Positions 15,805-54,619 of a stretch of DNA of 64,000 bases are shown here, one piece after another. The DNA comes from Thermoproteota archaeon (GTDB lineage Archaea > Korarchaeota > Korarchaeia > Korarchaeales > Korarchaeaceae): the NCBI GenBank assembly GCA_027491915.1, contig JAOZGC010000001.1, forward strand, positions 1 through 64,000, given 5' to 3'. A program made the translations under genes and the position numbers. The notes below the pieces were generated by a model. It searched no databases. It was not told where the DNA came from and worked only from the letters and a program-made list of their open reading frames with translations. Position 1 is the stretch's first letter. Each line of letters opens with the position of its first letter.

Positions 15805-16291
15805 CCGCCTGGGCGGACTCGGTCGGGAGCACCAGGTAGGAGTCGGCCGCCTTCTTCAGGGCAACGCTAAACCCGGGCTCCGCGCCGACCACTATCACCT
15901 CCTTACCCGCCTCCTTGGCCTTGTAGACGAGGGACACGTAGGCGGCGCTCCTGGTGACCAGCGCGATCGCGTCGATCTTCTTGTCCCCTATGGCCTCCAT
16001 CGCCGCTATGGAGAAGTCGACCTCCACCTTGCCCGGCGATATGACCGTCTTGTAACCGGCGTTGACCACCGCCTCCACCAGCTTCTCGGGAGCCTTCTTG
16101 TCCAGGACCACCACCTTTATCCGACACGAACCGAACCTCTGCAATCTCTCCGATATCTCCTCAAGATCGACCCCGACGTCCCTCCTGAGCATGTTCGGAC
16201 CGTCAACTACGACGGCGATCTTCTTGCCTCCTCCCCTCCTCCTGCCGACCCTCCTGAGGACTCTCAGGGGGCCGCCTCCGGATTCGCTCAT
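15794..16291 (-). CDS. NYN/PIN-like domain protein
   Basis: The 165-residue protein has the NYN fold related to PIN nucleases: KIAVVVDGPNM with the first acidic residue, VEVDFSIAAMEAI, AIALVTRSAAYVSL and IVVGAEPGFS. Archaeal members of this family are conserved but not well characterised; an RNA-cleaving or RNA-binding role is inferred. The N-terminal 24 residues are basic and Gly/Arg rich. The ATG at 16291 lies about 25 bp from an AATATATT box shared with the TFS gene. Confidence 0.8.
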   Translation of the reverse strand: MSESGGGPLRVLRRVGRRRGGGKKIAVVVDGPNMLRRDVGVDLEEISERLQRFGSCRIKVVVLDKKAPEKLVEAVVNAGYKTVISPGKVEVDFSIAAMEAIGDKKIDAIALVTRSAAYVSLVYKAKEAGKEVIVVGAEPGFSVALKKAADSYLVLPTESAQAVRK

Positions 16292-16311
16292 CCCTACGCC
16301 GGAAGGGCTCC

Positions 16312-16319
16312 AATATATT
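16312..16319. promoter_or_regulatory. Palindromic TATA box shared by NYN and TFS genes
   Basis: AATATATT is a perfect palindrome centred about 25 bp before the NYN start (16291, minus) and about 35 bp before the TTG of the TFS gene (16351, plus). No other AT-rich element lies in this divergent gap. Confidence 0.6.
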
Positions 16320-16350
16320 AAGCGGTTCGGGGAAAAGCAAAAATAGCGGG

Positions 16351-16701
16351 TTGGCCGCCGACGGTTGGATGCTCTGTCCGGAGTGCGGCTCCCTGATGAG
16401 GCCGACCAAGAAGGGCGGGAAGATCGTCTTCGTCTGCCCGAACTGCGGGCATGAGGCGAGGCCGGGAGCCGGGGCCGGATTCAGCGTCACCTCAAAGGTC
16501 GTGTCTGACCCGGCGGAGAAGCCCGTGATAATAGACAACCCGGACGAGCTGATATCGCTGCCTAAGGTAAAGGTGATATGTCCCAACTGCGGCAACACGG
16601 AGGCCTGGCTCAGGATAGAGCAGACCAGGTCCGCCGACGAGCCGCCAACCAGGATATACACCTGCGTGAAGTGCAAGTACACCTGGAGGGAATACAGCTG
16701 A
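16351..16701 (+). CDS. tfs: Transcription factor S (TFIIS/RpoM-like cleavage factor)
   Basis: TFS rescues backtracked RNA polymerase by stimulating transcript cleavage. The protein has an N-terminal zinc ribbon (CPECG ... CPNCG) and a C-terminal TFIIS-type ribbon (CPNCG ... CVKCKYTW) with the catalytic RSADEPPT hairpin, so it should be active in cleavage. The frame opens at TTG 16351 (116 residues); the ATG at 16369 gives MLCPECG, closer to the usual N-terminus, and I cannot decide between them because neither has a clear ribosome binding site. Confidence 0.95.
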   Translation: MAADGWMLCPECGSLMRPTKKGGKIVFVCPNCGHEARPGAGAGFSVTSKVVSDPAEKPVIIDNPDELISLPKVKVICPNCGNTEAWLRIEQTRSADEPPTRIYTCVKCKYTWREYS

Positions 16702-16923
16702 GCCGGACAGACTGAGCTAGTCGTCCCGAGGCGACTCGTACCAAGAATTGGCCGCTCTCCGGTCGGACGTCTGGCCCAACCTCTCCCTCTCAGCCCAGCG
16801 CCTATCCATCCGCCCGCCTCGGGCTGGACCGAAACCGGATTTAGAACCCGCCACGGGGACCCCGGGAGACGCGTGGTGGATCGCGGCGCGATCCATTTTT
16901 GGCCTTCCCAGGTCGGAGGCTCT

Positions 16924-17877
16924 ATGGGGGTCTACGGGTTTCCCGCCGGGCTGCCGAAGAGACCGTTCGAGGAGAGGTACCGGAGGCTCCTGGGCCCGGA
17001 TTACGAGGCGTTCCTGAGGTATACGGCCAGGATGCCGGTCCCCTCCATAAGGGTCAACCCTATGAAGCTGGATCCGGACATCCTCCTCTCCAGGCTGAGG
17101 CGCGGGGGTTGGATCTTGGAGGGGCTGCCCTGGTACCGCCACGGTTTCAGGGTCATCTCAGGACCGGCCAAGCTGGGGAACACCCCGGAGCACCAGCTGG
17201 GTCTCTACTACGTTCAGGAGGCCGCGTCCATGGCGCCGCCCGTCGCCCTGGATCCCAGGCCCGGGGAGCGGGTGCTCGATCTGGCGGCGGCCCCCGGGTC
17301 CAAGACCACCCAGATGGCCGAGATGATGGGGTGGAGGGGGGTCGTCGTGGCGAACGACCCGTCCCCCTCCAGGGCCAACTCGCTGGCCGCCAACGTCCAG
17401 AGGATGGGGAGCATCAACGTCGTCGTCACCTCCTACGACGGGAGGACCATAACCAGGCATCTCGGGGAGGGCGTCTTCGACGCGGTGCTCCTCGACGCTC
17501 CCTGCTCTGCCGTGGGGGCGGCCAGGAGGGACTGGACTCCCCTCAGGAGGTGGAGCCTCAGGTCCGTCCGGAGAATCTCCAGGCTGCAGGTCTCCCTGGC
17601 CCTGGAGGCCCTGAGATCCCTCAGGCCCGGCGGGAGGATGGTGTACTCCACCTGCACGCTGGACCCCGAGGAAAACGAGTTCGTGATCCACAGGCTGCTG
17701 TCGGAAGGCGCCGAGGTGGAGGAGGTGTCCCTGCCTGGGATGGTCACGAGGCCCGGGTTGACCCGGTGGGAGGGTAGAGAACTAGATCCCTCCCTGGCCA
17801 GGACCGTCAGGATCTACCCCCAGGACAACGACACCGAGGCCTTCTTCATCGCCCTGCTGAGGAGGTCGAGATCTTGA
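16924..17877 (+). CDS. NSUN/NOL1/NOP2-type RNA cytosine-C5 methyltransferase
   Basis: This SAM-dependent enzyme makes m5C in tRNA or rRNA. The SAM motif LDLAAAPGSKTTQMAEMM (about 117-134) and both catalytic Cys motifs are present: DAPCSAVG and YSTCTLDPEENE. The N-terminal part resembles the ferredoxin-like RNA-binding part of the family. The ATG at 16924 follows GGAGG; the open frame to 16873 is probably leader. A PUA-like RNA-binding protein is encoded directly after it with a TTGA overlap, and likely acts as its targeting domain. Confidence 0.9.
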   Translation: MGVYGFPAGLPKRPFEERYRRLLGPDYEAFLRYTARMPVPSIRVNPMKLDPDILLSRLRRGGWILEGLPWYRHGFRVISGPAKLGNTPEHQLGLYYVQEAASMAPPVALDPRPGERVLDLAAAPGSKTTQMAEMMGWRGVVVANDPSPSRANSLAANVQRMGSINVVVTSYDGRTITRHLGEGVFDAVLLDAPCSAVGAARRDWTPLRRWSLRSVRRISRLQVSLALEALRSLRPGGRMVYSTCTLDPEENEFVIHRLLSEGAEVEEVSLPGMVTRPGLTRWEGRELDPSLARTVRIYPQDNDTEAFFIALLRRSRS

Positions 17878-18326
17878 GCTCCGAGGTCGGGGACGGGGTG
17901 GACCGCATCCTGGCCGCGCTCCGGGAGAGGTTCGGGCTGATCGGGGTTCCGGATGGGGCTGTCCTGATTCCCTCCGGAAGTCGCAAGTATCGGGTGGCCT
18001 CGGAGGAGGCGGCCGCGCTGACGGCTGGCCGGGTCATCGGGGTCTACGTGGTCAAGGATACCCCGATGGGTCCCCTGCTCAGCATCGAGGGTACGCAGAT
18101 CTTGGGTCCCCTGGCGAGGAAGAACGTCCTCTCCCTACCAGAGGACCTCCTCGACGATTGGATGCGCGGCGGGGACTTGGAGATCGGGGAGAGGGGTGAC
18201 CTGGAGCCCGGCCTGGTGATAGTCAGGTTCGGGGACCTGTTCGCCGGGTGCGGCCTCTACTCCCCACCCAAGCTGAGGAACATGGTGCCCCTCTCCAGGA
18301 GGATCTCCTCGGGCGGCGGGAGGTGA
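17874..18326 (+). CDS. PUA-like RNA-binding protein paired with NSUN methylase (COG3270-like)
   Basis: The 150-residue protein resembles the RNA-binding PUA-like domain that is fused to RsmF-type m5C methylases in bacteria and is often a separate gene in archaea (COG3270). Visible features are a SRKYRVASEEAAAL segment, a strand GRVIGVYVVKDT and a C-terminal LVIVRFGDLFAGCGLY. The TTG start overlaps the methylase stop (TTGA at 17874-17877), strong evidence for joint translation. Confidence 0.75.
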   Translation: MSSEVGDGVDRILAALRERFGLIGVPDGAVLIPSGSRKYRVASEEAAALTAGRVIGVYVVKDTPMGPLLSIEGTQILGPLARKNVLSLPEDLLDDWMRGGDLEIGERGDLEPGLVIVRFGDLFAGCGLYSPPKLRNMVPLSRRISSGGGR

Positions 18327-18364
18327 GTTGGCGCGGGCTGCCAGCTCGCCCACCCACCGACCCC

Positions 18365-20836: not shown

Positions 20837-20873
20837 CGAGATCACCGGATCATGCCGGCCCCCTCTCCGGGGA

Positions 20874-21659
20874 TTATATAACGTTATTATCAACCCTCAA
20901 GACGATCCCGTCTCCCGGCGACACCCCGAGGGTCTCCGCGGCGCTCCGACCCTTCATGGAGATCTCAAGCAGGCCGCTGCTGCCCCTTATCAGCAGGAGC
21001 TCCCCCTCCCCCCCGGCCGAGTATGATGGGACGAGCCTGAACCTCCTGGGCTTCCCTCCTACCTCCGCCTCGCCGGCGGTCCCCCACCTCCACTCCCCGG
21101 AGGGGGCGCTCAGCACCACGTTCCCGAACCTGTCGACGTGGAGGACCTCTGCCTCTATCCATCCCTCTCCCGCCCGGTACCGGAACAGCTCCAGCCGGAC
21201 TCGCCAGTCGGCGCGCGGCCCGATCTCCTCGAACGGCAGGCCGCCGGCCAGGCGGGCCGCGGCGGGGGCGAACACGTCCCTTCCATCGAACGTCCCGCTC
21301 CTCTCGAGCGTGAGATCCTCCGATATCTCCCTGACCTCCGGCTCCCCCAGAGACTCGGCGGCGGGAAAGAGCAGGCCGTTGTCCGGTCCGACCAGATACC
21401 TGCCCCCGGCCCTGACGGCTATGGCGGCCCTCCCTCCCCCCACCCCGGGGTCCACCACCCCAACCAGGATCGAGCCCTGCGGGAACCACCTGGCCGCCTG
21501 CCAGAGTAAGAAGGCCCCCTCTTTCACGTTGAAGGGACTTACCTCGTGCGTCACGTCGATCACGCGGGCCTCCGGGCAGATGGAGAGGATAACCGCCTTC
21601 ATAGCCGCCGCGTAGTAGTCCCCGTTCCCGAAGTCGGTGAGGAGCCCGATCACGACCAT
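20874..21659 (-). CDS. SAM hydrolase / SAM hydroxide adenosyltransferase (DUF62)
   Basis: Members split S-adenosylmethionine to adenosine and methionine using an activated hydroxide, and are related to fluorinase and chlorinase. The 261-residue protein carries LLTDFGNGDYYAAAMK at the N-terminus, the VVDPGVGGGRAAIAV loop, and the GPDNGLL and GRDVFAPAAARL motifs, plus a C-terminal beta domain (HVDRFGNVV). Its ATG lies 30 bp from a TATA-like box shared with the small membrane protein gene on the other strand. A physiological role is unclear. Confidence 0.9.
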   Translation of the reverse strand: MVVIGLLTDFGNGDYYAAAMKAVILSICPEARVIDVTHEVSPFNVKEGAFLLWQAARWFPQGSILVGVVDPGVGGGRAAIAVRAGGRYLVGPDNGLLFPAAESLGEPEVREISEDLTLERSGTFDGRDVFAPAAARLAGGLPFEEIGPRADWRVRLELFRYRAGEGWIEAEVLHVDRFGNVVLSAPSGEWRWGTAGEAEVGGKPRRFRLVPSYSAGGEGELLLIRGSSGLLEISMKGRSAAETLGVSPGDGIVLRVDNNVI

Positions 21660-21685
21660 GGTTGACCGTCCGCCCGGGGGGAGTC

Positions 21686-21692
21686 ATTTAAT
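21686..21692. promoter_or_regulatory. Shared TATA-like box between DUF62 and small membrane protein genes
   Basis: ATTTAAT is centred 30 bp before the minus-strand ATG (21659) and 27 bp before the plus-strand ATG (21716). It is the only AT-rich element in the gap, and both transcripts would be leaderless. Confidence 0.6.
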
Positions 21693-21715
21693 CTTGACAA
21701 CCCCGCCCTGCGCGG

Positions 21716-21925
21716 ATGACGGACTTCAGGAGGAGGGGTACCCTCATGGTCCTCGCTGGAGCCGGGCTGGCCGGCCTCTCCACCTGGGCCCTGGTGGCCG
21801 CCGGGGAGGAGGTAGCCCTCTGGTATCTCAGGGCCGTGGCCCTCGCGTTCCTCCTGGGTGTGTCGGCCCTCCTGATCATGATGGGCCTGGCGATCAGGAG
21901 GCCCGTTCCCCCCCCGGCCTCCTGA
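21716..21925 (+). CDS. Small two-helix membrane protein
   Basis: The 69-residue protein has a basic N-terminus and two hydrophobic helices (about 9-29 and 36-60), with a Pro-rich tail. I recognise no family. It is supported as a gene by codon use like its neighbours and by a TATA-like box 27 bp before the ATG. It ends ten bases before the convergent stomatin gene. Confidence 0.6.
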   Translation: MTDFRRRGTLMVLAGAGLAGLSTWALVAAGEEVALWYLRAVALAFLLGVSALLIMMGLAIRRPVPPPAS

Positions 21926-21934
21926 TACCGCCTC

Positions 21935-22804: not shown

Positions 22805-22809
22805 ATCCC

Positions 22810-24039: not shown

Positions 24040-24077
24040 TTCGGCGTGCTTCTTGCTACTGGTGGGATTTACAGTAT

Positions 24078-24647
24078 TTAATTCTTTCCCCGGGCCGCGA
24101 ACGACCTCAGGTCCTCGTAGACGGGACCCCTCGGGGTCAGGATGCTCCTCTTGAGCTTGAATGAGGAGACCCTCATGGAGCCGACCTCGATCTCGGATAG
24201 CCCCTCTATCACCCTCTTGAGGGCGGCCGGATCGCTCAGATACTTCACCCTGCATATGGTGAGATGGGGAGACGGCGGCCTCCTCTCCCTCCTGAATCCC
24301 AGCCGGGAGACGGCGGCCTCCACCCTCCGCATGAGATCTGCCAGGAGATCTCTCCCCTCTCCGAATCCCACCCATATCACCCTGGGCCGCGAGATCCCTG
24401 GGAAGGCCCCCAAGCCCCTGAGCTCCGCGTCGAACTCCTCGAATTCTATTTCCCCCAACACCCCCGCCAGCTCGGGTATAAGGGACTCGTCTACCTCCCC
24501 CAAGAATTTAAGCGTCAGGTGCAGGTTCTCCGGCTCCACCATCTTGACCCTATTCCCGGTGGCCTCTATCTCGGCCTGTATGTCCCCGATAACCCTCTTC
24601 TCCCTCTCCCCCTCAAGGTCGACCGCGACGAACGTCCTGATCCTCAA
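24078..24647 (-). CDS. thpR: RNA 2',3'-cyclic phosphodiesterase ThpR (LigT family)
   Basis: The 189-residue protein belongs to the 2H phosphoesterases; ThpR opens 2',3'-cyclic phosphates and can act in RNA ligation in vitro. Both catalytic HxTx motifs are present: HLTL (about 43-46) and HLTI (about 127-130). The start is TTG at 24647, 31 bp from an AT-rich box shared with the divergent peptidase gene. In this genome it could process tRNA exon ends, but that is speculation. Confidence 0.92.
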   Translation of the reverse strand: MRIRTFVAVDLEGEREKRVIGDIQAEIEATGNRVKMVEPENLHLTLKFLGEVDESLIPELAGVLGEIEFEEFDAELRGLGAFPGISRPRVIWVGFGEGRDLLADLMRRVEAAVSRLGFRRERRPPSPHLTICRVKYLSDPAALKRVIEGLSEIEVGSMRVSSFKLKRSILTPRGPVYEDLRSFAARGKN

Positions 24648-24673
24648 CTCGGATCGGGGTCAGGGGACCCCAA

Positions 24674-24685
24674 TCGTATAAACGA
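24674..24685. promoter_or_regulatory. Shared TATA-like box between thpR and M18 peptidase genes
   Basis: TCGTATAAACGA, nearly its own reverse complement, is centred about 32 bp before thpR (24647, minus) and about 27 bp before the peptidase ATG (24706, plus). The starts are 59 bp apart. Confidence 0.6.
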
Positions 24686-24705
24686 TTCCCGGATGTGGCG
24701 ATGCA

Positions 24706-26037
24706 ATGCGCGGGCTGGTTCGGGATTACGCCGACTTCCTCGATCGAAACAGGACCGAGAGGGAGGTCGCCGGGTGGATCGCCTCCGAGGCCCGGAGCCT
24801 GGGATTCTCCAGGCTGGCCGACTTGGATCGACTCGAGCCCGGCGACAGGGTTCTATTCGGTCCGCTCAGGGGGACGGTCTTCCTGGCCGTGCTGGGAGAC
24901 TGCTACCCCGCGGAGTGCGGGTTCAGGGTGGCCGCGGCCCACACGGACAGCGTGAGGATCGACCTGAAGTACCACCCGCTGGGGGAGAGGAGAGGGGTGG
25001 CCTTCTTCCGCACCAGGTACTACGGCTCGATAAAACCCTACCAGTGGGTCCACATCCCCCTCATCCTGAGGGGGGTCGTGGGGCTCAGGGGTGGTGAGAC
25101 GGTGGAGGTGTCTATAGGCGGGGAGGGTGGGCCCTTCCTGGTGATCCCCGACCTCTTCCCCCACGTGGCCTCCACGAAGCAGGGCGAGAGGAGGGGGTTG
25201 GACGTGGTCAGGGGGGAGGAGCTCAGGCCCCTCGTTGGTCTGAGGCCCGGAGGGGGGGCGGCCGAGGGGGTGGTCCGCCTGCTGAGGGAGGAGTACGGAA
25301 TAGGATTGGACGATCTCGCGAGCGCCGAGCTGGAGCTGGTGCCGGCCTTCCACCCGGCGCCCGTCGGTCTGGACGGGTCGATGCTCGGTGCCTACGGTCA
25401 GGACGACAGGTACTGCGTGTTCTCTCTCTTCAAGGCGATCTCCCGCGTGGAAGATCCGACCGAGACCTCCGTCGTCGCCTTGGTGGATCGGGAGGAGACG
25501 GGCAGCGAGGGGGAGGGGGGAGCCCAGTCGGCGACCCTGGAGCTTTTCCTCTCTTCCATCATGGGGAAGGGGGCCGGCATCGCGGACCTGCTGTGCGCCC
25601 TCTCCAGGTCGATCGCCGTCTCGGCCGACACCCCTGGAGCCTGGGATCCGGTGCACGGGGATGTACACGATCCGGAGAACGTGCCCAGACTGGGTCTTGG
25701 GCCGGTAATCAGGAGGTTCACGGGGAAGGGAGGAAAGTTCGGCACCAGCGAGGCCAGCGCGGAATACTCCGGTTGGATTAGGGGAATCCTGACCCGGCGC
25801 GACATCCCCCACCAGTTCGGCAACTACGGGACCGTGGACGCCGGGGGCGGTGGAACCGTGGCCAGGTTCTTGGCGCGTCGGGGGATGCAGGTGATAGACC
25901 TGGGCCTCCCGGTGATCGGGATCCACTCACCCTACGAGATATCGGCCCCCGAGTTCGACCTGGATCCCGGCGTGGCCGCATACGAGGCCTTCTTCTCGGC
26001 TCCCCGCGGAGGGGAAGTAACGCCATCCTTTTTTTAA
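24706..26037 (+). CDS. M18 family aminopeptidase
   Basis: This zinc peptidase of the aspartyl aminopeptidase (M18) family removes N-terminal residues from peptides. The metal and catalytic motifs are in order: AAAHTDS, GQDDRYCVFSL, VDREETGSEG, SADTPGAWDP, and C-terminal GTVDAGGGGTVA and IGIHSPYE. Length (443 residues) fits. It is transcribed leaderless from a box 27 bp upstream. M18 enzymes are less common in archaea than in bacteria and eukaryotes. It would supply amino acids for the fermentation suggested by IorAB. Confidence 0.92.
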   Translation: MRGLVRDYADFLDRNRTEREVAGWIASEARSLGFSRLADLDRLEPGDRVLFGPLRGTVFLAVLGDCYPAECGFRVAAAHTDSVRIDLKYHPLGERRGVAFFRTRYYGSIKPYQWVHIPLILRGVVGLRGGETVEVSIGGEGGPFLVIPDLFPHVASTKQGERRGLDVVRGEELRPLVGLRPGGGAAEGVVRLLREEYGIGLDDLASAELELVPAFHPAPVGLDGSMLGAYGQDDRYCVFSLFKAISRVEDPTETSVVALVDREETGSEGEGGAQSATLELFLSSIMGKGAGIADLLCALSRSIAVSADTPGAWDPVHGDVHDPENVPRLGLGPVIRRFTGKGGKFGTSEASAEYSGWIRGILTRRDIPHQFGNYGTVDAGGGGTVARFLARRGMQVIDLGLPVIGIHSPYEISAPEFDLDPGVAAYEAFFSAPRGGEVTPSFF

Positions 26038-26065
26038 CTTCTGGGGCCCCTGAACCCCGAGGCAG

Positions 26066-27768: not shown

Positions 27769-27788
27769 CTGGGCCCCGCGCCCAGCCC

Positions 27789-28622
27789 TCACCGCCCTGA
27801 CCTAGGTATGAACCTGACGACCCCCATCCCGTGCTGGCGGCCGGATCCCAGCCCCACTATCTCGGCTAGCCTGAGGAGCCTTGCGACCCAGGCGGCCATG
27901 AACTCGTGCTCCTCCTTGGTCCAGGACGGGTGGTCTATTATCTTGTAGTTCGCCCAGCCGACGAACCCCACCAGGTCTCCGCCCTCGAACCTGGCCGGGA
28001 TGACTGTGCATATGCTGTGTCCGGTCTCCACCACGCTCAGATCCGCCCAAGAGGCGATCTCACCCGGGTTGACGTCGTCGGAACCGATAAGCCTGTTCCA
28101 CACCCTCGCCATCCTGGGGAGCATTATCGCGGCTATCGGGAAGAGTCTGCAGTAGGGGGTGCTGGCCCTCCTGAACGACGTTGGCGTCAGGAACCTCAAC
28201 CTGAACGACCTCGGCGGGTTCCTGCCCAGGGGGGGGACTCCCACCTCCCGGGACCTCACCCCGCCGACCTCGAAGACCACGTCCCCCACCCTCATGGAGG
28301 GCTTCCTGCCGAGCCAGGACCTCATTATCTCCGATATCTTGCGGCTGTCGGACGTGATCCTGATCCTCATCTCCATCCCCCTAGTCACCGGGATGGATCT
28401 GTCCCCGCACCCGATCGACGGCCGCTCCCCGTCAAACGGCGGGGTCACGACCAGGTTAGAGTAGGCCCCGGAGGTCTTCAGGCTCCTGGAGGTCAGCGGA
28501 TCCACCGAGTCCAGAGCGTGGAGGAGAATCCTCCTGAAGGGTCCCCCCGATATGGGGAGCTCCCCCTCACCACCCGAGATCAGGATTACCTCCAGCACGT
28601 GGAACGTGAAGTCCCCTTTCAT
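27789..28622 (-). CDS. cas6: Cas6-like CRISPR RNA endonuclease
   Basis: The 277-residue protein has the two-ferredoxin-fold layout of Cas6, which cuts CRISPR repeat RNA. Support comes from the C-terminal glycine-rich loop GLGSGRQHGMGVVRF (257-271), the preceding LVGFVGWANYKI strand, the middle FRLRFLTPTSFRRAST segment typical of Cas6, and an N-terminal RILLHAL helix with His35 as a possible catalytic residue. No other cas gene and no repeat array is in the window, so it is either a satellite Cas6 serving a distant array or a Cas6-fold protein with another RNA job. It shares a TATA-like box (about 28674-28682) with the divergent kinase gene, with a leader holding GAGGAGTGG. Confidence 0.7.
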   Translation of the reverse strand: MKGDFTFHVLEVILISGGEGELPISGGPFRRILLHALDSVDPLTSRSLKTSGAYSNLVVTPPFDGERPSIGCGDRSIPVTRGMEMRIRITSDSRKISEIMRSWLGRKPSMRVGDVVFEVGGVRSREVGVPPLGRNPPRSFRLRFLTPTSFRRASTPYCRLFPIAAIMLPRMARVWNRLIGSDDVNPGEIASWADLSVVETGHSICTVIPARFEGGDLVGFVGWANYKIIDHPSWTKEEHEFMAAWVARLLRLAEIVGLGSGRQHGMGVVRFIPRSGR

Positions 28623-28704
28623 CTCAGACCACTCCTCGGACCGGCATCGGCCCCCCGCGGCCTGATCGGGATCCCTTTTTATCCTGAACCCCTGCCGAGC
28701 CGAG

Positions 28705-29280
28705 ATGTCGGCCGACGTCTACAGGTACATCCTGTTGGTCGGGCTGCCCGGATCGGGGAAGGACGCCGCCGCCGGCCTGATATCCAGGGAGTTCGGTCAC
28801 TTCCCGATAAGGATGAGCGACCTGGTTCGGCTCGAGGTCGAGAAGTCCGGCCTTGAGGTCACTAGGGAGACCCTGAGGGACGTGGGCTCCGCCCTCCGGA
28901 GCAGGATGGGGCCGGCCGCCGTCGCCAAGATGGTCCTCGAGAGGATCAGGTCCCTGGAGGGGGAGGGCGTGGAGAGGTTCGTCGTCAACGGCATAAGGAA
29001 CCCGGAGGAGGTGGACGAGTTCAGGGCCGCCCTGGGAGACGAGGCCGTGGTGGTAGGCCTGGTGGCCCCGAGGAGGGCCAGATTCCTGAGGCTCCTCGGG
29101 AGGGGCCGGGAGGGATTCGACCCGGCCAGCTGGGCGAAGTTCGTCGCGGAGGACCGGGAGGAGATAGAGAGGTTCAACCTGGGAAACGCCCTCGCCCTGG
29201 CCGACGTCTTCGTAAACAACGACTCGGACGTCGAGACCTTCAGGGAGAGGCTGTTCAGGGCCGTCCGGAGGGTCAGCTGA
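28705..29280 (+). CDS. UPF0200-like P-loop kinase (dephospho-CoA kinase related)
   Basis: The 191-residue protein is a P-loop NMP-kinase-fold enzyme: LLVGLPGSGKDAAA (8-21) is the Walker A region, followed by MSDLVRLEVEKSG and VVNGIRNPEEVDEF, the pattern of the archaeal UPF0200 family, related to dephospho-CoA kinase. The real substrate is not known. The ATG lies 27 bp after CTTTTTATCC, so the transcript is probably leaderless. Its 3' end overlaps the convergent radical SAM gene by 8 bp. Confidence 0.8.
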   Translation: MSADVYRYILLVGLPGSGKDAAAGLISREFGHFPIRMSDLVRLEVEKSGLEVTRETLRDVGSALRSRMGPAAVAKMVLERIRSLEGEGVERFVVNGIRNPEEVDEFRAALGDEAVVVGLVAPRRARFLRLLGRGREGFDPASWAKFVAEDREEIERFNLGNALALADVFVNNDSDVETFRERLFRAVRRVS

Positions 29281-34298: not shown

Positions 34299-35216
34299 CT
34301 AGGGACGGAGTATCTCCACCCTCAATCCCGCCTCTCTGATCCGGGCCACCAGCGCCTCCAGATCCCTCTGTCCGATAAGCCTTGCGCCCGCGGCGTGCCG
34401 ATGTCCCCCCCCGCCGAACGACCTCGCCAGCTCAAGGGCCGTTACGTCGGATCCTCCCCTCGATCTGAGCGACACCCTGTAGGCTTCTCCGGAAGACGGC
34501 CCTATGGTCCCGATCAGGTCGGCCGCCCCGGTCAAAGTCGACAGGGCCACGACCCCCAGGTATCCCGGCGCATCCCTCAGGTCTACCAGGATGGCCGTTC
34601 CGTCTCCCTCTCCGCGGAATCTGATCTTCTCCACCCTGGAGAGCAGGTCTCCGGCCTCGGATCTTATGATCTCAAGCTCCTTCTTTATGGTCGGGAGACC
34701 CACAAGGTCCCCCTCTTCGGCGGGTCGGACCCTGAGGATCTCATCCACCACCCTGGACAGGCGCGTCCGCCTGGTCCGAAAGATGCGCTTCACGGCCGCC
34801 GCGAACCTGGCCCCCTCCATCCCGAGCTCTCCGGAGTCCACCCTTGACGTGAGTTCCACCGTAGCCCCCATGCCCGGATGCTCGTCCGGCTCGCTCCTCA
34901 TCAACAGCTCTGCCGCGGATCGGGCGTTCGGATCCACCACCTCCAGCCTCGCCCGCGACGTCCCCCGCCGCCGGTGGGGGTGGTGATCCACCCAGACCTC
35001 GGCCCCTCCCCGAGGCAGTGGGAGATCCAGCACGGCGCCCCATTCCCTCTCAGAGACGAGGGCCTCGCTCGGGGCGGCGAAGCTCACCCTGACGTCCTCG
35101 ATCGACTGGACCAGCAGGGCCGCCGACACGAGCCCGTCCAGGTCCTCCCCGTGCGTCAAGATCTTGAGGGGAGGTCCCCGGCCTGACGACCTGAGGAACT
35201 CGGAGGGGCCGACCAT
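34299..35216 (-). CDS. DHH family phosphoesterase
   Basis: The 305-residue protein is a DHH-type phosphoesterase (RecJ, oligoribonuclease and bis-phosphate nuclease superfamily). It has ILTHGEDLDGLVSAALL, the name-giving WVDHHPH motif, and the C-terminal DHHA1 motif FGGGGHRHAAG. The substrate may be nanoRNA, single-stranded DNA or a cyclic-di-nucleotide product. I place the start at ATG 35216, 27 bp from an AT-rich box shared with ribL; the frame remains open to 35345 but that part lies within the divergent gene. Confidence 0.85.
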   Translation of the reverse strand: MVGPSEFLRSSGRGPPLKILTHGEDLDGLVSAALLVQSIEDVRVSFAAPSEALVSEREWGAVLDLPLPRGGAEVWVDHHPHRRRGTSRARLEVVDPNARSAAELLMRSEPDEHPGMGATVELTSRVDSGELGMEGARFAAAVKRIFRTRRTRLSRVVDEILRVRPAEEGDLVGLPTIKKELEIIRSEAGDLLSRVEKIRFRGEGDGTAILVDLRDAPGYLGVVALSTLTGAADLIGTIGPSSGEAYRVSLRSRGGSDVTALELARSFGGGGHRHAAGARLIGQRDLEALVARIREAGLRVEILRP

Positions 35217-35238: not shown

Positions 35239-35247
35239 TTCATAACT
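35239..35247. promoter_or_regulatory. Shared TATA-like box between DHH and ribL genes
   Basis: GTTCATAAC is a weak AT-rich box centred 27 bp from both starts: DHH ATG 35216 (minus) and ribL ATG 35270 (plus). The starts are 54 bp apart. Confidence 0.45.
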
Positions 35248-35269: not shown

Positions 35270-35716
35270 ATGGGCAGGAAGGTCCTGGTCGCCGGAACCT
35301 TCGACATCGTGCACCCCGGACACGTGAGGATGCTCTCCAGCGCAAAGAGGATGGCGGGCCCCGACGGGGAGCTGGTGGTCGTCGTGGCGCGGGATTCCAA
35401 CGTCAGGCGCTTCAAGGGCAGGGATCCCATCCTGCCGGAGGAGGAGAGGCTGTTTGTGGTGTCGAGCCTGAAGCCCGTCGACAGGGCCATACTCGGAGAT
35501 CCAAACGACCCCATCAACTCCGTCCTCAGGGAGAAACCCGACGTGATCGCCCTAGGCTACGATCAGTGGCCCGACGAGGGGGAGCTGGAGCGCAGACTCA
35601 GGGAGGCCGGGCTGCGCGCGTCGATCGTGAGGCTCCCGAAGTTCCCCTGCGAGCACGACTCGACGACCGACATAGTGGAGAGGATCGTCAGGATATTCTG
35701 CAAAGATTCCAGATAA
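35270..35716 (+). CDS. ribL: Archaeal FAD synthetase RibL
   Basis: RibL adenylates FMN to FAD and belongs to the cytidylyltransferase-like nucleotidyltransferases. The 148-residue protein has the VLVAGTFDIVHPGHVRML motif containing the HxGH nucleotide site (HPGH) and the later STTDIVERI segment that carries the conserved Ser/Thr-Thr. Archaeal members are this length and are often named glycerol-3-phosphate cytidylyltransferase-like. The ATG at 35270 is the leaderless start behind the shared box; a GTG/TTG further up falls within the promoter. Confidence 0.9.
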   Translation: MGRKVLVAGTFDIVHPGHVRMLSSAKRMAGPDGELVVVVARDSNVRRFKGRDPILPEEERLFVVSSLKPVDRAILGDPNDPINSVLREKPDVIALGYDQWPDEGELERRLREAGLRASIVRLPKFPCEHDSTTDIVERIVRIFCKDSR

Positions 35717-37625: not shown

Positions 37626-38438
37626 TCAGTCCCCCTCCCCTCCCCCGCTCTCCTGGGCCCTGTGGACGACCACCCTGAAGCTCACCGTGGACTTGGCTAT
37701 CGGGTGGCCCGGGGCGCCGACCACCAGCTTAACCTCCTCGGTCCAATTTCTGAACGCCTTCACCGTGTAGTTCATCTCGGCGTAGCCGTCCGCGTCCGTC
37801 TTACCCGGATCTGGGCTGAACCACCCCAGCCCGGCCCTCTTCATGCCCGAGACGGGCCACACCCTGGCCCCCCCGACGGGCCTCCCCAGCTCGTTGAGCA
37901 CCCTCACCCTCAGGACGACCGTCACGTTGGGCGCCGTGCTTATGTTGGTCGAGTTCGGTCCCAGCGTGACGTTCACCTCCTCGGGGGTGACCGACGCCTC
38001 GACCGAGAGATTCCCACCGTAGTACACCGTGAACGGCTCGTCGACCGTGACGTCCCTTCCAGCCAGGGTGGCGGTCACCCTGACGACGTGCAGTCCAACG
38101 GAGTACCTGCCCTCGAGCGCGGTCAGCCTCAGGATTCCCCGACTCCCGTTGAGGTGGAAGCTCTCTATCTCCCTGAGCTGCGGGCCCTGCAGCACGTGGA
38201 CGGTGACGTCAGAGGCCTCGGATGGTGCGTTGACCGAGACGGTGAAGTTTCCGTTGAGGGGGACGTTCCTCGGGTCCACGGCCACGGATACCGGCGGGGG
38301 GGCCCACAGGAATCGGGGCATCACCAGCAGCAGTACTCCGAGACCGACTGCCAGGGCCAGCGAGGCGTACAGCTTAATGTCTCTTCCCTCAGCGCCTTCC
38401 CGCAATCCAGATCGCCGATCCTGGGGGGCCCTATACAT
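37626..38438 (-). CDS. Membrane-anchored extracellular Ig-like protein, sequon rich
   Basis: The 270-residue protein has a basic N-terminus, one membrane helix (about 22-44) and an extracellular part of beta-sandwich type, probably two Ig-like domains, with a GKTDADGYAEMNYTV segment typical of such repeats. It carries nine N-glycosylation sequons (for example NFT, NGS, NLS, NST, NWT), so it is a likely AglB substrate. The family is not recognised. The ATG at 38438 lies about 26 bp from a box shared with the G1P dehydrogenase gene. Confidence 0.7.
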   Translation of the reverse strand: MYRAPQDRRSGLREGAEGRDIKLYASLALAVGLGVLLLVMPRFLWAPPPVSVAVDPRNVPLNGNFTVSVNAPSEASDVTVHVLQGPQLREIESFHLNGSRGILRLTALEGRYSVGLHVVRVTATLAGRDVTVDEPFTVYYGGNLSVEASVTPEEVNVTLGPNSTNISTAPNVTVVLRVRVLNELGRPVGGARVWPVSGMKRAGLGWFSPDPGKTDADGYAEMNYTVKAFRNWTEEVKLVVGAPGHPIAKSTVSFRVVVHRAQESGGGEGD

Positions 38439-38458: not shown

Positions 38459-38468
38459 CTTATTTATC
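38459..38468. promoter_or_regulatory. Shared TATA-like box between cell-surface protein and egsA genes
   Basis: CTTATTTATC is centred about 26 bp before the minus-strand ATG (38438) and about 31 bp before the TTG of egsA (38495). The starts are 57 bp apart. Confidence 0.6.
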
Positions 38469-38494: not shown

Positions 38495-39604
38495 TTGAAG
38501 AGGCTATCCCCCAAGTACCAGGGAAGGCTGGAGTTCCTGGAGTCACCCAGGTACATACTCTTCGGTCCCGGGGCCATCGAGAAGTCGGCCGAGACCCTGA
38601 TGGCGCTGGGAATCTCCGGCAAGGCCCTCATAGTGACCGGCGGTCCGAAGACCGAGAAGATAGCGTGGAAGCTGGGCGAGGCCCTGGAGCAGGAGGGTCA
38701 CCCCTTCCACCTGTTCAGGATAGGGGAGGGGGAGCCCACCCCGAGGGTCGTAGAGGGGGCCGCGGAGGCGGCCAGGAGGGAGGGCTGCTCCTTCGTCGTG
38801 GCCGTGGGAGGGGGCAGGGCGCTCGACGTCGGCAAGCTGGCCAGCCACTGGGTCGGGATGAAGTACCTCTCCGTCCCCACCTCCGCCAGCCACGACGGAA
38901 TGGCCTCCCCCTCCGTCGGTTTCCTGCTGTCCCGCGCCGTCTCGGAGTACAGGGGGCCCGAGTGGGCCAGGCCGGAGTCGCCGACCGCCGTCATAGCAGA
39001 CACGGAGGTCATAAAGAACGCCCCCGACTGGACCATGAGGGCCGGTTTCGGGGACTTGATCGCCAAGTTCACCGCGGTTAGGGACTGGGAGCTGGCCCAC
39101 AGGCTGAAGGACGAACCGTACAGCGAGTACGCGGCCTCGATGTCCCTGCTGAGCGCGCGCCTCGCCGTCGAGCACGCGGGAGACCTGAAGCCCGGGCTGG
39201 AGGAGAGCGTGAGGCTGCTGGTCAAGGCCCTGATAGGGAGCGGCGTGGCCATAAGCATAGCGGGATCCAGCAGGCCGGCCAGCGGGAGCGAGCACCTGTT
39301 CAGCCACGCGATAGACCTCCTATCTCAGCGGGAAGGAGTCTCCAGGGCACCTCACGGTATACAGTGCGGCCTGGGGGCCATCATGATGGCATACCTCCAG
39401 GGTCAGGACTGGAGGATGATAAGATCGAAGCTCGAGGAGGCGGGCGCCCCGATCACCGCGCGGGAGGCGGGCCTCGACCCGGAGGTCGTCGTTAGGGCCC
39501 TTACCCTGGCCCACAGGGTGAGGGACAGGTACACCATACTGGGGGAGACGGGGCTCACAGAGAGCGCGGCCAGGAAGCTGGCCGAGAGGACCGGGGTCAT
39601 ATGA
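38495..39604 (+). CDS. egsA: sn-glycerol-1-phosphate dehydrogenase
   Basis: EgsA reduces dihydroxyacetone phosphate to sn-glycerol-1-phosphate, setting the stereochemistry of archaeal lipids. The 369-residue protein has the nucleotide region (GGPKTEKIAW, VVAVGGGRALDVGKLA), PTSASHDGMASP, and the zinc-binding residues in GFGDLIAKF, SEHLFSHAIDLL and APHGIQCGLG. I place the start at TTG 38495 from family length and from the shared TATA-like box; upstream ATG codons would lie in the promoter. It overlaps the convergent membrane gene by 8 bp. Confidence 0.95.
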   Translation: MKRLSPKYQGRLEFLESPRYILFGPGAIEKSAETLMALGISGKALIVTGGPKTEKIAWKLGEALEQEGHPFHLFRIGEGEPTPRVVEGAAEAARREGCSFVVAVGGGRALDVGKLASHWVGMKYLSVPTSASHDGMASPSVGFLLSRAVSEYRGPEWARPESPTAVIADTEVIKNAPDWTMRAGFGDLIAKFTAVRDWELAHRLKDEPYSEYAASMSLLSARLAVEHAGDLKPGLEESVRLLVKALIGSGVAISIAGSSRPASGSEHLFSHAIDLLSQREGVSRAPHGIQCGLGAIMMAYLQGQDWRMIRSKLEEAGAPITAREAGLDPEVVVRALTLAHRVRDRYTILGETGLTESAARKLAERTGVI

Positions 39605-49904: not shown

Positions 49905-49915
49905 AGGCGGGAGCC

Positions 49916-50365: not shown

Positions 50366-50366
50366 C

Positions 50367-51134
50367 TTGGACGTGGGGGAGATGGCGCTCGCGATCCTAC
50401 AGGGCGTACTGGAGTGGCTGCCGGTCAGCAGCGAGGGCCAGCTGGTCCAGATCTCCATCTTGGCCCTGGGGATGCCGCCGGAGAGGGCCCTGAACGAGGC
50501 CCTCTTCCTGCACCTCGGAACCGCCCTCGCCGCCCTCGTCGCGCTGAGGAAGGAGGTGGCGGACGCCCTGGCCGGGATACCCCGGGGGGAGGATTTCTCC
50601 AAGTTCGTCGTCGTCTCCGTGGTGGTCTCGGCCCTGGTGGGCCTCCCTGTGATGGTGGCCGTAAAGGGAGCGTCCCCCTCCATCGGGGGGGCGGCCATGA
50701 TCGCCTTCTCCCTCGTCCTGGTGGCGGTCGGCGCGGTCCTCAGGGTGGCCGAGTCCAGGGGTCCCCCGTCCGGGAGGGGGATCTCCCCGAGGGAGGGGGT
50801 GGTGGCCGGCCTGGCCCAGGGTCTGGCCGCGATTCCCGGGGTGAGCAGGTCGGGCTCGACCGTGGCCGCCCTCCTCCTCATGGGATCCGATCCGGAGGAG
50901 GCCCTGAGGGCCTCCTTCCTCATAGGGATACCGGCCACCATGGGGGCGTCCGCGCTCTCACCCCCGCCCGAACTCTCCCTCGGTCAGATGGCGGTCCTAG
51001 TCTCCGTCAGCTTCGCCGTCGGCCTGATATCCCTGAGGATCCTCCTCTCGGCGGCTAGGAGGGTCCGCATGTCGACCTTCGCCCTGGCCTTCGGGGCGGC
51101 CGGGGTGGCGCTGAACCTACCCTCCATCCTGTGA
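50367..51134 (+). CDS. uppP: UppP/BacA-like undecaprenyl-diphosphatase
   Basis: This membrane phosphatase removes a phosphate from a polyprenyl diphosphate, in archaea probably dolichyl diphosphate left after N-glycosylation or cell-surface glycan transfer. The 255-residue protein has about seven membrane helices and both family motifs: LEWLPVSSEGQ (catalytic Glu; Gln where bacterial enzymes have His) and IPGVSRSGSTV with the catalytic Arg. The TTG at 50367 follows the Nudix stop by one base. It fits with AglB in recycling the lipid carrier. Confidence 0.9.
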   Translation: MDVGEMALAILQGVLEWLPVSSEGQLVQISILALGMPPERALNEALFLHLGTALAALVALRKEVADALAGIPRGEDFSKFVVVSVVVSALVGLPVMVAVKGASPSIGGAAMIAFSLVLVAVGAVLRVAESRGPPSGRGISPREGVVAGLAQGLAAIPGVSRSGSTVAALLLMGSDPEEALRASFLIGIPATMGASALSPPPELSLGQMAVLVSVSFAVGLISLRILLSAARRVRMSTFALAFGAAGVALNLPSIL

Positions 51135-51192
51135 TCCCCTGGCCCCCCACCTCTCCACTCTTTCCCCCTCCGCTCCCCTCCTCCGACTCCCC

Positions 51193-52533
51193 TCAGCCGA
51201 ATATCACGGACTCCCTGCCGAAGAGCTTCGCGCTAACGATCAGCAGGAGCATCAGGTAGATCACCGACGAGGCGAAGGACTCGACCAGCGCGGCGACGTT
51301 CCCCGGGTCCACCAGGAGATCCCTGACCAGCATGGCTATGCTGGTCACGGGGGCGAGCCTGAGCGGGCCCATCATGGGGGGAGGCAGGTAGGGGACGGCC
51401 ACCATCGGTAGGACGAGGACCCCCATGGTCGCCCCCAGGTACTGCTGGGCCTCCTTGAAGGTCTTGGCGAACGAGGACGTCATGACGATCACCGCGTTCC
51501 CCGTCAGGCCGGCCAGTATCATGGCCACCACCACGCCGGCCAGCACCAGCGCCGGATTCACCCCCTCCGGTATGAGCCTGGCGGCCGCGGCGGCAGCGGC
51601 CGCCTGCCCGATCCCCGAGGGGCCAACTCCCCCGGTGACCTGGAGGCCGGCTGAGAACTCCTCCGCCATGAGGATCAGGCCCAGGATGGAAGCCATTATG
51701 GTGGACAGTCCGGCCAGCAGGGAGAAGAAGGTCATGGCCAGGTACTTCCCAGCCAATATGCTCAACCTGCCCACAGGCGCCGTGAGCAGGGCCTCTATGG
51801 TCTTTCTCTCCCTCTCCCCCGCTATCATATCGAGGGCGAACGTCCCGGCCCCGGTTATGGCTATGACCCCCACCATCATCGGGAGCATCATCGACCCGAC
51901 CACCACCTCGGGCGACACCTCCCTGCCGGTGGAGGTTACCTGGAACTCCCTCTCAACCAGGGGGTGCACGTAATCCAGGCTGAGGTTCAGGGGGCGCAGC
52001 CTCTCGCTGACTATCTCCTCCTCCACCCGGGATACCGCGGCCGAAACCATGGAGATCGCCGTAGAGGACTTCATGCTGAAGGGGTCGTAGTAGTAGTCCA
52101 CGCTGGCGGTCAGGCCCGACGTCAGGTTGGCCGTGAATCCCTCCGGTATGACCACCACCAGGTCGGCCCTCCCCCCCAGTATCTCGGCCGACGTGTTGAC
52201 CCGCCCGGTGCGCACGACCAGGGACATCCCGCCCTGGTCGGAGATCGCCGAGGCGAGTCTCCCGGCGGCCCCACCGTCGTCCAGGAGGACCAGCTCAACG
52301 ACCGGGGGGGTGGTCTTCGGGCTCACCATCAGTATGGGGATCGCCATCGCCAGCGGGATCAGCACCACGGGGAGGACTATCGTGTTGATTATGGTCCTCC
52401 TGTCCCTCAGGGCCTCGGTGATCTCCTTCCACGCCACCACCACCGGGGCGGCCTTCGGTATTCCGTACCCGGCCAGCCCCAGCCCGCGCGTCACCTTGAC
52501 CTCCCCGGATCCTATTCGCCCCCAGAGCCTCAT
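51193..52533 (-). CDS. ABC transporter permease, NatB-like
   Basis: The 446-residue protein is an ABC-2 type exporter permease: an N-terminal helix (about 40-60), a large external loop of about 150 residues, then five or six helices with the DMIAGERERKTIEALL coupling motif typical of NatB. It could export ions, peptides or lipids. The ATG overlaps the stop of the ATPase gene (ATGA), so they form one operon. Confidence 0.9.
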   Translation of the reverse strand: MRLWGRIGSGEVKVTRGLGLAGYGIPKAAPVVVAWKEITEALRDRRTIINTIVLPVVLIPLAMAIPILMVSPKTTPPVVELVLLDDGGAAGRLASAISDQGGMSLVVRTGRVNTSAEILGGRADLVVVIPEGFTANLTSGLTASVDYYYDPFSMKSSTAISMVSAAVSRVEEEIVSERLRPLNLSLDYVHPLVEREFQVTSTGREVSPEVVVGSMMLPMMVGVIAITGAGTFALDMIAGERERKTIEALLTAPVGRLSILAGKYLAMTFFSLLAGLSTIMASILGLILMAEEFSAGLQVTGGVGPSGIGQAAAAAAAARLIPEGVNPALVLAGVVVAMILAGLTGNAVIVMTSSFAKTFKEAQQYLGATMGVLVLPMVAVPYLPPPMMGPLRLAPVTSIAMLVRDLLVDPGNVAALVESFASSVIYLMLLLIVSAKLFGRESVIFG

Positions 52534-53267
52534 GCCGTTATCTCACCCCTGACCAGCCTGACGAATATCTCCTCGAACTCCCTGAGGCCGGTCAACCTCT
52601 CCAGATCCTCGACGCCGCCGCGGTAGACCACCTTCCCCCTGTTTATCACGGCCACCGCCTCGCACAGCTTCTGGACCTCCCACATGTTGTGGGTGCTGAG
52701 CACCACCGTCTTGCCGGCCTCGGCGTGCTCCCTCATCATCCCCCTAATCTCCCTGGCGCTCATCACGTCGACCCCGGACGTCGGCTCGTCCAGCAGCAGG
52801 ACGGGGGGCTCGTGCAGGACAGCCCTGGCGAAGGTTAGCTTGGCCCTCATCCCCTTGGACAGCCTGTCCGCCAGGGTGAACCTCTTCTCCCACAGGCTCA
52901 ACCTGGTCAGGAGGTCCCTCACCCTCTCCCTCAGCTCCGACTCCTCCATCCCCCGGAGCTTGCCGAAGTAGATCAGGTTCTCCTCGGCGGTCAGCCTGGG
53001 GTAGAGGCCCGTGTCCTCCGGCATGACCCCGATGACCTCCCTGACCCCCCTCGGGTCCCTGGTGACGCTCCTCCCCATGACGACGGCGTCCCCCGAGTCG
53101 GGCCTGAGCACCCCGTATATCATCCTCAGCGTGGTCGTCTTGCCGGCCCCGTTAGGTCCGAGGAAGCCGAACACCGATCCCTCTTCCACCTCGAAGCTCA
53201 CCCCGTCCACGGCAACGACATCCCCGAACGCCTTGGTCAGCCCTACGGTGGCCACGGCCGCCGGCAT
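52530..53267 (-). CDS. ABC transporter ATPase, NatA-like
   Basis: The 245-residue ATPase has Walker A GPNGAGKTT, the signature LSKGMRAKL (in place of LSGGQ, as often in NatA/CcmA types), Walker B VLLLDEPTSGVD and the H-loop STHNMWEVQ. It powers the NatB-like permease. The ATG at 53267 is 28 bp from a TATA-like box shared with the divergent secreted-protein gene; that opposite gene could be functionally linked. Confidence 0.93.
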   Translation of the reverse strand: MPAAVATVGLTKAFGDVVAVDGVSFEVEEGSVFGFLGPNGAGKTTTLRMIYGVLRPDSGDAVVMGRSVTRDPRGVREVIGVMPEDTGLYPRLTAEENLIYFGKLRGMEESELRERVRDLLTRLSLWEKRFTLADRLSKGMRAKLTFARAVLHEPPVLLLDEPTSGVDVMSAREIRGMMREHAEAGKTVVLSTHNMWEVQKLCEAVAVINRGKVVYRGGVEDLERLTGLREFEEIFVRLVRGEITA

Positions 53268-53291
53268 ACCTCCGGCCGCCCGGGGGATTGA

Positions 53292-53298
53292 TTTTAAA
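53292..53298. promoter_or_regulatory. Shared TATA-like box between natA-like and secreted glycoprotein genes
   Basis: TTTTAAA is centred 28 bp before the minus-strand ATG (53267) and 26 bp before the plus-strand ATG (53321). The starts are 54 bp apart. Confidence 0.65.
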
Positions 53299-53320
53299 CC
53301 CAGCGAGTCCGGGCGGCCGG

Positions 53321-54619
53321 ATGCGCTGGAGGAAGGTGGCAGCGGTCTCCTCGGTTCTCCTGGCCGTCGTCGCGTTCAACCCGGGTCCGGGGCCGATGAG
53401 GGTCGACGCCCACTTCTCGTCGCTGGCGGTTACCCCCTCTCAGCTGATACTCGGGGAGGCGGCCAACCTGAGCTTCAACCTCTCCAAGAGGATGAAGGTC
53501 CCCGAGGGCGTGATGAGCTGCAGGGCCAGGCTGGTGGAGGCCAACCTGACCCTGGTATTACCGCCCCAGCTGGCGGTGACCAACCTCACCGTGTCGGCAG
53601 ACCCGCAGGATGTGGAGGTCTCGGTCTCCGGCCGCAGGATCTCGGTCAGGCACCGGGAGGACGTGTTGTCCGTGACCCTGAGGGCCTCCGTGATCGCGCC
53701 GCTGAACTCGACCCCCGGGGTCTATCCCATAAGGGTACTGGCCTTAGGCAAGGAGATCCTGCCCAACGAATCCGTGAGGTATCTCAACGCCACCCAGAAG
53801 ATCGTCCTGACGGTCGGATCTTGGCACCCGGCGGCCGAGCTGAGGGTGTTCCCCTCCAGGATAACTCCCCCCGGGAGGATCGCCGTCAGGGTGGACGTGG
53901 GGAACCCGTCGGCCCTCTGGGTGGTCAGGCCGGGCGGCCGGCTGGAGATGGTCAACCTGACCATAAGGGACGCGGCGGTCGCGTTGACCTCCACCTTCAT
54001 GGGCGGACAGGACGTGATCCGGGTGGGGGAAGTCGGACCAGGCCGGGTGGAGGTGATAAACAGGGTTTACGACCTACCGGACGGCGTTCCGGCCGGGGCC
54101 CACCAGGTAGTGGCCCTGGTCTCGGGGTCGGTTGGGCCGACTTCCGGGTCGGTCATCGTCAGGGACGACCTGGAGATAGTGGAGCAGGCCGACGTGAGGG
54201 TGGAGTCCCTGGACCTGCCGGCGGAGGTGGACGAGAACTCCACCTTCCCGGTCAATATAACCGTCAGGAACTACTCCCCCTTCCCGGCCAAGTCCGTCTC
54301 CGTCAGGGCGGCGGCCGGCGGGGTCGGGGACGAGGTCTACCTCGGCGACCTGGGGGGCTACGAGGTCAGGAGCGTCGTGGTGAACCTCCGGTCCGGGGGG
54401 GCCGGCAACCTGACCGTCGAGGTCGAGGTCTCATGGAGGGACGCATACCCTCCCCAGGCCAGGGAGGCGAGCGCCGAGGCCGCCATCTCGGTCTCCCGGT
54501 CGGGGGGATCGGGAGGGGGGCTGGCCGTCCCCGCAGATCTGATGCTGGTCGCCGGCGCCCTGGCGGTCGGGCTGGTGATGGGGTACGCCTGGCGCAGGCC
54601 GAAGGCAGGTGAGCGCTAG
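53321..54619 (+). CDS. Secreted, C-terminally anchored beta-sandwich protein (CARDB-like), sequon rich
   Basis: The 432-residue protein has a signal peptide (about 1-22), several beta-sandwich regions including a CARDB-like domain (about 290-390: VNITVRNYSPFPAKSVSV), and one C-terminal membrane helix before a basic end. It carries about twelve N-glycosylation sequons, so it is a likely AglB substrate. The family is not certain. It shares a promoter region with the ABC exporter ATPase; the two may act in the same surface process. The RNase HIII-like gene overlaps its end. Confidence 0.75.
   Translation: MRWRKVAAVSSVLLAVVAFNPGPGPMRVDAHFSSLAVTPSQLILGEAANLSFNLSKRMKVPEGVMSCRARLVEANLTLVLPPQLAVTNLTVSADPQDVEVSVSGRRISVRHREDVLSVTLRASVIAPLNSTPGVYPIRVLALGKEILPNESVRYLNATQKIVLTVGSWHPAAELRVFPSRITPPGRIAVRVDVGNPSALWVVRPGGRLEMVNLTIRDAAVALTSTFMGGQDVIRVGEVGPGRVEVINRVYDLPDGVPAGAHQVVALVSGSVGPTSGSVIVRDDLEIVEQADVRVESLDLPAEVDENSTFPVNITVRNYSPFPAKSVSVRAAAGGVGDEVYLGDLGGYEVRSVVVNLRSGGAGNLTVEVEVSWRDAYPPQAREASAEAAISVSRSGGSGGGLAVPADLMLVAGALAVGLVMGYAWRRPKAGER

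Follow-up and report, generated by a model that had tools for sequence, protein, structure and literature searches.

A recurrent single TATA-like box between closely spaced divergent genes of a Korarchaeaceae archaeon, a frequent layout of probable bidirectional promoters

Introduction

Can one TBP site serve two protein-coding genes that point away from each other? The question is raised by a 64,000-nucleotide stretch of DNA, called the window throughout this text, that covers positions 1 to 64,000 of the forward strand of contig JAOZGC010000001.1 from a Thermoproteota archaeon of the Korarchaeaceae (assembly GCA_027491915.1). Here, several divergent gene pairs have start codons little more than 50 bp apart and enclose one AT-rich, TATA-like box about midway between them. 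The source genome comprises 1,116,564 bases on 4 contigs and encodes TBP, recognised by two matches within one 251-residue frame, while the window has a G+C content (GC) of 65%. Direction of an archaeal promoter is held to be set by the B recognition element (BRE) and TFB. A preliminary description of the window listed seven such pairs and interpreted them as fixed bidirectional promoters that form an organising rule of this genome.

Results and Discussion

The sizes of divergent gaps in this genome show a narrow peak. Our sample consists of the window and 24 further stretches, together 544 kb or 49% of the source genome, in which a home-made, codon-pair-based gene caller that is blind to promoters predicted 586 genes and 90 divergent pairs; the caller is not benchmarked and its start calls are uncertain. 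Gaps of 49–58 bp make up 18 of the 90 and gaps of 45–64 bp 24 of the 90, these distances being known from start codons alone and not from transcript 5' ends. Compared with smoothed null distributions, the best 10-bp bin has a p value of 0.0002 at bandwidth 40, 0.0012 at 30, 0.0066 at 20 and 0.013 at 15. At several of the pairs listed in the preliminary description the caller chose other starts (35159 for 35216, 38405 for 38438, 38456 for 38495 and 45133 for 45145), which should blur a gap peak rather than create one.

Box content was assessed with an AT-island rule of our own choice, requiring 6 of 7 A/T in GC-rich genomes and 7 of 7 in other genomes. Among the 24 gaps of 45–64 bp, 13 carry an island in range of both starts (a shared box), 6 have an island near enough to just one of them, 1 has two islands and 4 have none, while 24 gaps of 75–104 bp include 0 shared, 11 with two boxes, 7 with one and 6 with none. 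Shuffling the 45–64-bp gaps produces a shared box in 3.2%, and a strict box rule assigns 13 of the 90 divergent gaps to the shared class. The island is often central in gaps of 49–58 bp (for example 26/24, 26/26, 27/25 and 28/26 bp from the two starts); gaps of about 77–101 bp often hold a pair of islands, with either gene about 26 bp from the one nearest to it, as in a gap of 86 bp with islands at 28/58 and 58/28 bp and one of 92 bp with islands at 24/68 and 68/24 bp. Shared islands are of normal length (mean 8.8 bp vs 9.6 bp for one-way islands, p 0.48). The AT profile upstream of start codons peaks at −28 to −24 for divergent gaps of 40–70 bp (0.67–0.80) and more weakly for those above 70 bp (0.45–0.57). 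Divergent gaps of this genome follow two architectures, with either one central box or two separate boxes.

Both sides of the shared boxes are occupied by real genes. Every one of the 20 proteins encoded by ten shared pairs outside the window belongs to a Pfam family, as do 9 of the 12 encoded by the six pairs of the window that are described below. By inspection of the Pfam names, without a formal test, no pattern of a functional link within shared pairs emerged. Two consecutive shared-box promoters were observed in one stretch of this genome (L012, C4:100001-120000) at 8013-12223; the first lies between genes for a DUF72 protein (−) and an IF-2B-family protein (+), the second between genes for a RuBisCO_large-family protein (−) and a CLP1_P protein (+), with the IF-2B and RuBisCO-like genes convergent between them.

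The same class of gaps recurs in some relatives, for which, as for all other genomes, separate models of the caller were trained. Within the family, gaps of 45–64 bp account for 24/90 divergent gaps here, 10/30 in G007, 8/33 in G011, 3/34 in G005 and 2/22 in G001. Outside the family the shares are 1/48 in Vulcanisaeta distributa, 1/32 in a Pyrodictium metagenome-assembled genome, 2/28 on Haloferax larsenii plasmids, and 2/32 and 0/26 in two further archaeal sets. Pooled, 47/209 gaps of the five family genomes vs 6/166 of the five other archaeal sets fall into this range (Fisher p 6e-8; p 4e-4 when the comparison is limited to gaps of 0–130 bp). The Haloferax control is confined to plasmids with an incomplete gene table, in whose annotation 0/30 divergent gaps lie below 89 bp, the smallest being 89 bp. 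In gaps of 45–66 bp, shared boxes were found in 13/26 cases in the source genome, 7/10 in G007, 4/8 in G011, 3/4 in G005 and 2/3 in G001; Vulcanisaeta has 1/1, where shuffles reach 0.30, and the four other non-family sets have 0/1, 0/2, 0/0 and 0/2. We also considered whether every archaeon with boxes at −26 behaves in this way and rejected the idea, as Vulcanisaeta has two boxes in 6/9 gaps of 75–105 bp, yet only 1/48 of its divergent gaps measures 45–64 bp.

The window itself contains six pairs of the shared-box type, each with a single AT island whose centre lies 25–32 bp from either start. Between the gene for an LigT-type phosphoesterase (24078-24647, −, TTG start) and that for an M18 aminopeptidase (24706-26037, +), the gap of 58 bp holds a TATA-like box at 24677..24682, with TATAAA inside AATCGTATAAACGATT; a homolog of the M18 gene is present in 2 of 24 family genomes, this one counted. 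The DHHA1-domain gene (34299-35216, −) and a cytidylyltransferase-like gene (35270-35716, +) are 53 bp apart, with the box at 35239..35245. Homology to the former begins at residue 3–6 in nine relatives and later in the remaining ones, and to the latter at residue 1 in 23/23 loci. A gap of 56 bp with its box at 38460..38467 separates a gene without Pfam match (37626-38438, −) from a Fe-ADH_2 gene (38495-39604, +, from TTG) whose product resembles glycerol-1-phosphate (G1P) dehydrogenase; homology to the latter starts at residue 3 in genus g2, but at residue 11–12 in most of genus g4.

The fourth pair, a PUA-domain gene (44545-45090, −) and a Trm112p-like gene (45145-45450, +), encloses the box TTTAAAT at 45113..45119 in a gap of 54 bp. 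Support for its right-hand start comes from a Trm112p match that begins at residue 2 and is marginal (23.0 bits vs a cut-off of 22); in 21 relatives' loci, the PUA gene has no homolog of the right-hand gene next to it. An ABC transporter ATPase gene (52530-53267, −) faces away from a gene for a 432-residue protein without Pfam match (53321-54619, +), with the box ATTGATTTTAAA at 53287..53298 and a gap of 53 bp. In this gap (53268-53320) a G+C-rich inverted repeat, CCGGCCGCCCGG / CCGGGCGGCCGG, flanks the box and reaches near both start codons; to judge from its sequence it may be a chance product of a GC-rich genome or possibly an operator. The weakest of the six is the pair formed by a SAM hydroxide adenosyltransferase gene (20874-21659, −) and an open reading frame of 69 codons (21716-21925, +), 56 bp apart around a box at 21686..21692 within a wider AT island at 21684-21695, as the right-hand frame is without outside support: it has no Pfam match, and no homolog stands beside the neighbouring gene in 24 relatives' loci.

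A seventh pair, 16291/16351, had been listed with these six and does not belong to the class. The start of transcription factor S (TFS) is the ATG at 16369 and not the TTG at 16351, since TFS homologs align from the methionine at 16369 and the alignment begins at residue 1 of that form in 17/17 loci. The gap 16291/16369 is therefore 77 bp long and has two boxes, one at 16312..16321 (−), 25 bp from the start of the NYN-domain gene (15794-16291, −), and one at 16339..16345 (+), 26 bp from the ATG of the TFS gene (16369-16701, +). Three more gaps had been proposed as variants with leaders. Two of them each have one off-centre box: in 28622/28705 it lies at 28676..28682 (+), 26 bp from the AAA_17-family gene starting at 28705 (+) and 56 bp from 28622, and in 48207/48287 it is closer to 48207. 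The Cas6-family gene on the left of the former (27789-28622, −) has no box about 26 bp from its start. The third, 46308/46381, was rejected as a divergent pair, the plus-strand start being a CTG and an ArsR-type helix-turn-helix gene lying on the minus strand at 46477-47271; this latter gene was missed by the gene caller. The earlier observation, in which one pair and one variant are mistaken, is partly confirmed and largely real: the box does lie about 26 bp upstream, and most of the listed gaps contain one box only.

Comparison with relatives shows that the layout changes between genera. The genus of the source genome has no second member among the 24 family genomes searched. Orthologous boxes were counted as shared when the island lay 20–34 bp from both starts, ortholog starts were picked by a rule of our own that prefers an ATG close to the homology boundary, and all counts include the source genome. 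For the NYN/TFS pair, 18 loci were examined, of which 17 have both genes, divergent in 17/17; the layouts are 8 shared, 1 with two boxes (the 77-bp gap described above), 4 with one and 4 with none. All eight shared cases belong to genus g4, with a gap of 63–64 bp and one box 31–33 bp from both ATGs, which sit at the homology boundary on both sides. The pair of the gene without Pfam match and the G1P dehydrogenase-like gene was examined at 23 loci, 20 of them with a gap, and gave 2 shared, 8 two-box (genus g4, 85–88 bp), 5 one-box and 5 box-free layouts; the shared ones are the 56-bp gap of the window and a 65-bp gap with a second island in G011, and the right-hand starts of these orthologs are not certain to be equivalent. 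Between genera, then, these two pairs changed layout, and did so in opposite directions.

The DHHA1/cytidylyltransferase pair, divergent in 23/23 family loci and with one island in 20/23, retains one box without the centring: most orthologs have the box 23–35 bp from the right-hand gene and 42–55 bp or more from the left-hand gene. Purine-rich stretches stand just before the right-hand ATG in several of these orthologs (L250, L257 and others). They may be Shine-Dalgarno leaders, in which case the same pair would be leadered in some genera and leaderless in the source genome, and strict leaderlessness would not be universal.

Boxes of either kind carry little information about direction. Training on 71 one-way boxes of the source genome gave the motif A.ATTTTTAAA..A; the columns before the box, whose BRE flanks were scored together with it, are T-poor and A/C-rich. 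One-way boxes left out of training score 8.9 on average in the forward and 8.1 in the reverse direction, and 38% score equally well or better in reverse, in line with the earlier suggestion that the box hardly encodes direction. In 17 shared boxes the better-scoring direction reaches 10.7 and the other 9.0, compared with 9.4 and 7.6 for one-way boxes (p 0.03 for the weaker direction); with both directions pooled, shared boxes differ from one-way boxes read in reverse (p 0.001) and not from those read forward (p 0.21). The weaker-direction test gave p 0.27 in G007 and p 0.06 in G011, with 7 shared boxes each. Shared boxes of the source genome are stronger both ways, not more symmetric.

On this basis we consider it likely that the shared boxes are bidirectional core promoters serving two mRNAs. 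One TBP site would lie midway between two divergent, essentially leaderless genes, and its near-symmetric TATA box could be bound by TBP in either orientation, upon which TFB and RNA polymerase would assemble on one side or the other and initiate about 26 bp away, at or within a few bases of the respective start codon. With a start about 26 bp from the box in both directions, geometry would set the gap at about 2 x 26 bp, while two genes that each keep their own box would need about 75–105 bp. From the sequence we infer that the box drives both genes, that their mRNAs lack leaders, and that there is competition between the two directions for a single site.

Several observations weigh against this interpretation. 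Eleven of the 24 gaps of 45–64 bp are not classed as shared, and a central box also occurs in 6/31 non-divergent gaps of the same size. Upstream of 112 tandem genes (gap of at least 60 bp) the AT content near −26 barely rises (0.41–0.46), so that the tandem class gives no clear sign of leaderless promoters; either the box at −26 is mainly a feature of divergent genes, or tandem starts are poorly called. Genus g2, represented by two genomes of similar GC (62–63%), has few such gaps (5/56), from which it follows that family membership and GC alone do not make the peak. Together with the Haloferax plasmids, which show 2/28 at 61% GC, this genus led us to reject GC content alone as the cause. Under the 20–34-bp rule the DHHA1/cytidylyltransferase box is shared in only 3/23 loci, with four more within 37 bp on both sides. 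The difference between the two direction scores is 1.75 in shared and 1.82 in one-way boxes (p 0.71), which led us to reject a special symmetry of shared boxes, and neither in G007 (p 0.66) nor in G011 (p 0.99) are they more symmetric. The BRE-like A bases are weak in the source genome.

The proposal of fixed bidirectional promoters as an organising rule is accordingly only partly supported. The class comprises 20–27% of divergent gaps, the two-box class is about equally common, and orthologs change class between genera. The shared box is real and frequent, yet not fixed, and describes a frequent layout rather than a rule.

Two other arrangements of the promoter itself could produce a short gap with a central AT island. 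The island might be a fusion of two separate TATA/BRE sites that overlap, one on each strand, the short gap being a result of genome compaction. Some shared islands are indeed 12–13 bp long, for example TTCAATTAAATTT and that of the ABC transporter gap; as a class, however, shared islands are no longer than one-way islands, for which reason we rejected twin boxes as the principal explanation, and the one-way motif is nearly symmetric by itself. We regard fused twin sites as unlikely. Quite improbable, in our judgement, is that the central box serves one gene alone and that the other is weakly expressed, is transcribed from within its neighbour's coding region or is transcribed in some other way; the box would then be central only because the gap had shrunk to the minimum length tolerated. 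Such a state would resemble Pyrococcus furiosus, where many head-to-tail promoters are accompanied, about 50 bp upstream, by antisense starts regarded as non-functional (PMC6640164). It would also suit the 8/26 gaps of 45–66 bp whose box is within range of just one start, and the majority of the DHHA1/cytidylyltransferase orthologs, whose single box is near enough to the right-hand gene alone. Yet both starts are within range of the box in 13/24 gaps of 45–64 bp, the proteins checked outside the window belong to real genes in 20/20 cases, and eight relatives keep one NYN/TFS box midway between two ATGs.

The peak could also have been created by start-codon choice or sampling: the caller does disagree with homology or with the preliminary description at several starts, and the narrowest smoothing null gives only p 0.013. 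Against this stand the recurrence of the class in G007 (10/30) and G011 (8/33) with separately trained models, the mere 6/166 such gaps in five other archaeal sets under the same procedure, and the NYN/TFS orthologs of genus g4, whose eight gaps of 63–64 bp are bounded by ATGs at the homology boundary on both sides. We therefore hold an artefact to be very improbable.

A bidirectional core promoter of this kind would have precedents in part. In P. furiosus, according to Grunberger et al. (2019, PMC6640164), antisense starts were mapped about 50 bp upstream of primary starts, a BRE-TATA-BRE motif was found in 38 such promoters, one promoter yielded both transcripts in vitro with starts 49 bp apart, and the median head-to-head gap is 117 bp. 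The source genome resembles that system in that one near-symmetric TATA box would give two opposite-strand starts, there about 49–50 bp apart. It differs in that the P. furiosus analysis concerned head-to-tail genes, where the second product is an antisense RNA, whereas here protein genes lie on both sides and about 53 bp separate the start codons themselves. For Korarchaeum cryptofilum OPF8, prediction gave 41.1% leaderless genes (PMC3160421). As in leaderless archaeal promoters, the box of the divergent genes lies about 26 bp from the start codon and leaves no room for a leader; unlike those promoters, treated gene by gene in that study, one box here is in range of two genes. A leaderless-rich lineage combined with the P. 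furiosus geometry would place two start codons about 50 bp apart, as seen here.

Bacteria provide a parallel based on another element. Warman et al. reportedly described in 2021 divergent transcription from symmetric bacterial −10 elements, and in those promoters, as would hold for the boxes described here, symmetry gives divergent starts at a preferred spacing. In bacteria this spacing, which the −10 element and not TBP determines, is typically 18 bp, and 24% of the bidirectional promoters of E. coli lie between divergent genes (PMC10268837 and PMC12825309, respectively). Among the literature matches listed, most subscription journals being outside their scope and the articles being available in part, only PMC6640164 deals with anything similar to an archaeal TATA box shared in this way, and we recognised no report of a peak in the gaps between genes of archaea, although earlier mention elsewhere is possible. 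Two-way initiation from one near-symmetric TATA box is known from P. furiosus; the new elements are its probable recurrent use between two leaderless genes, the share of gaps involved, and the changes of layout that can be traced among relatives.

Conclusion

In some Korarchaeia, unrelated housekeeping genes might be locked together on one TBP site, where firing one way would exclude the other and couple their expression by competition, and lineages might convert between one-box and two-box layouts by gain or loss of about 25 bp. We put this forward tentatively, as a possibility that we would not yet favour. Should it hold, the splitting and fusion of promoters would become visible as an evolutionary process. 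The natural gene pairs described here offer many promoters that are seemingly obliged to work both ways, and two-box orthologs in related genera are ready controls for them. They open direct tests of what sets the direction of transcription, of competition on one TBP site, and of the splitting and fusion of divergent promoters.

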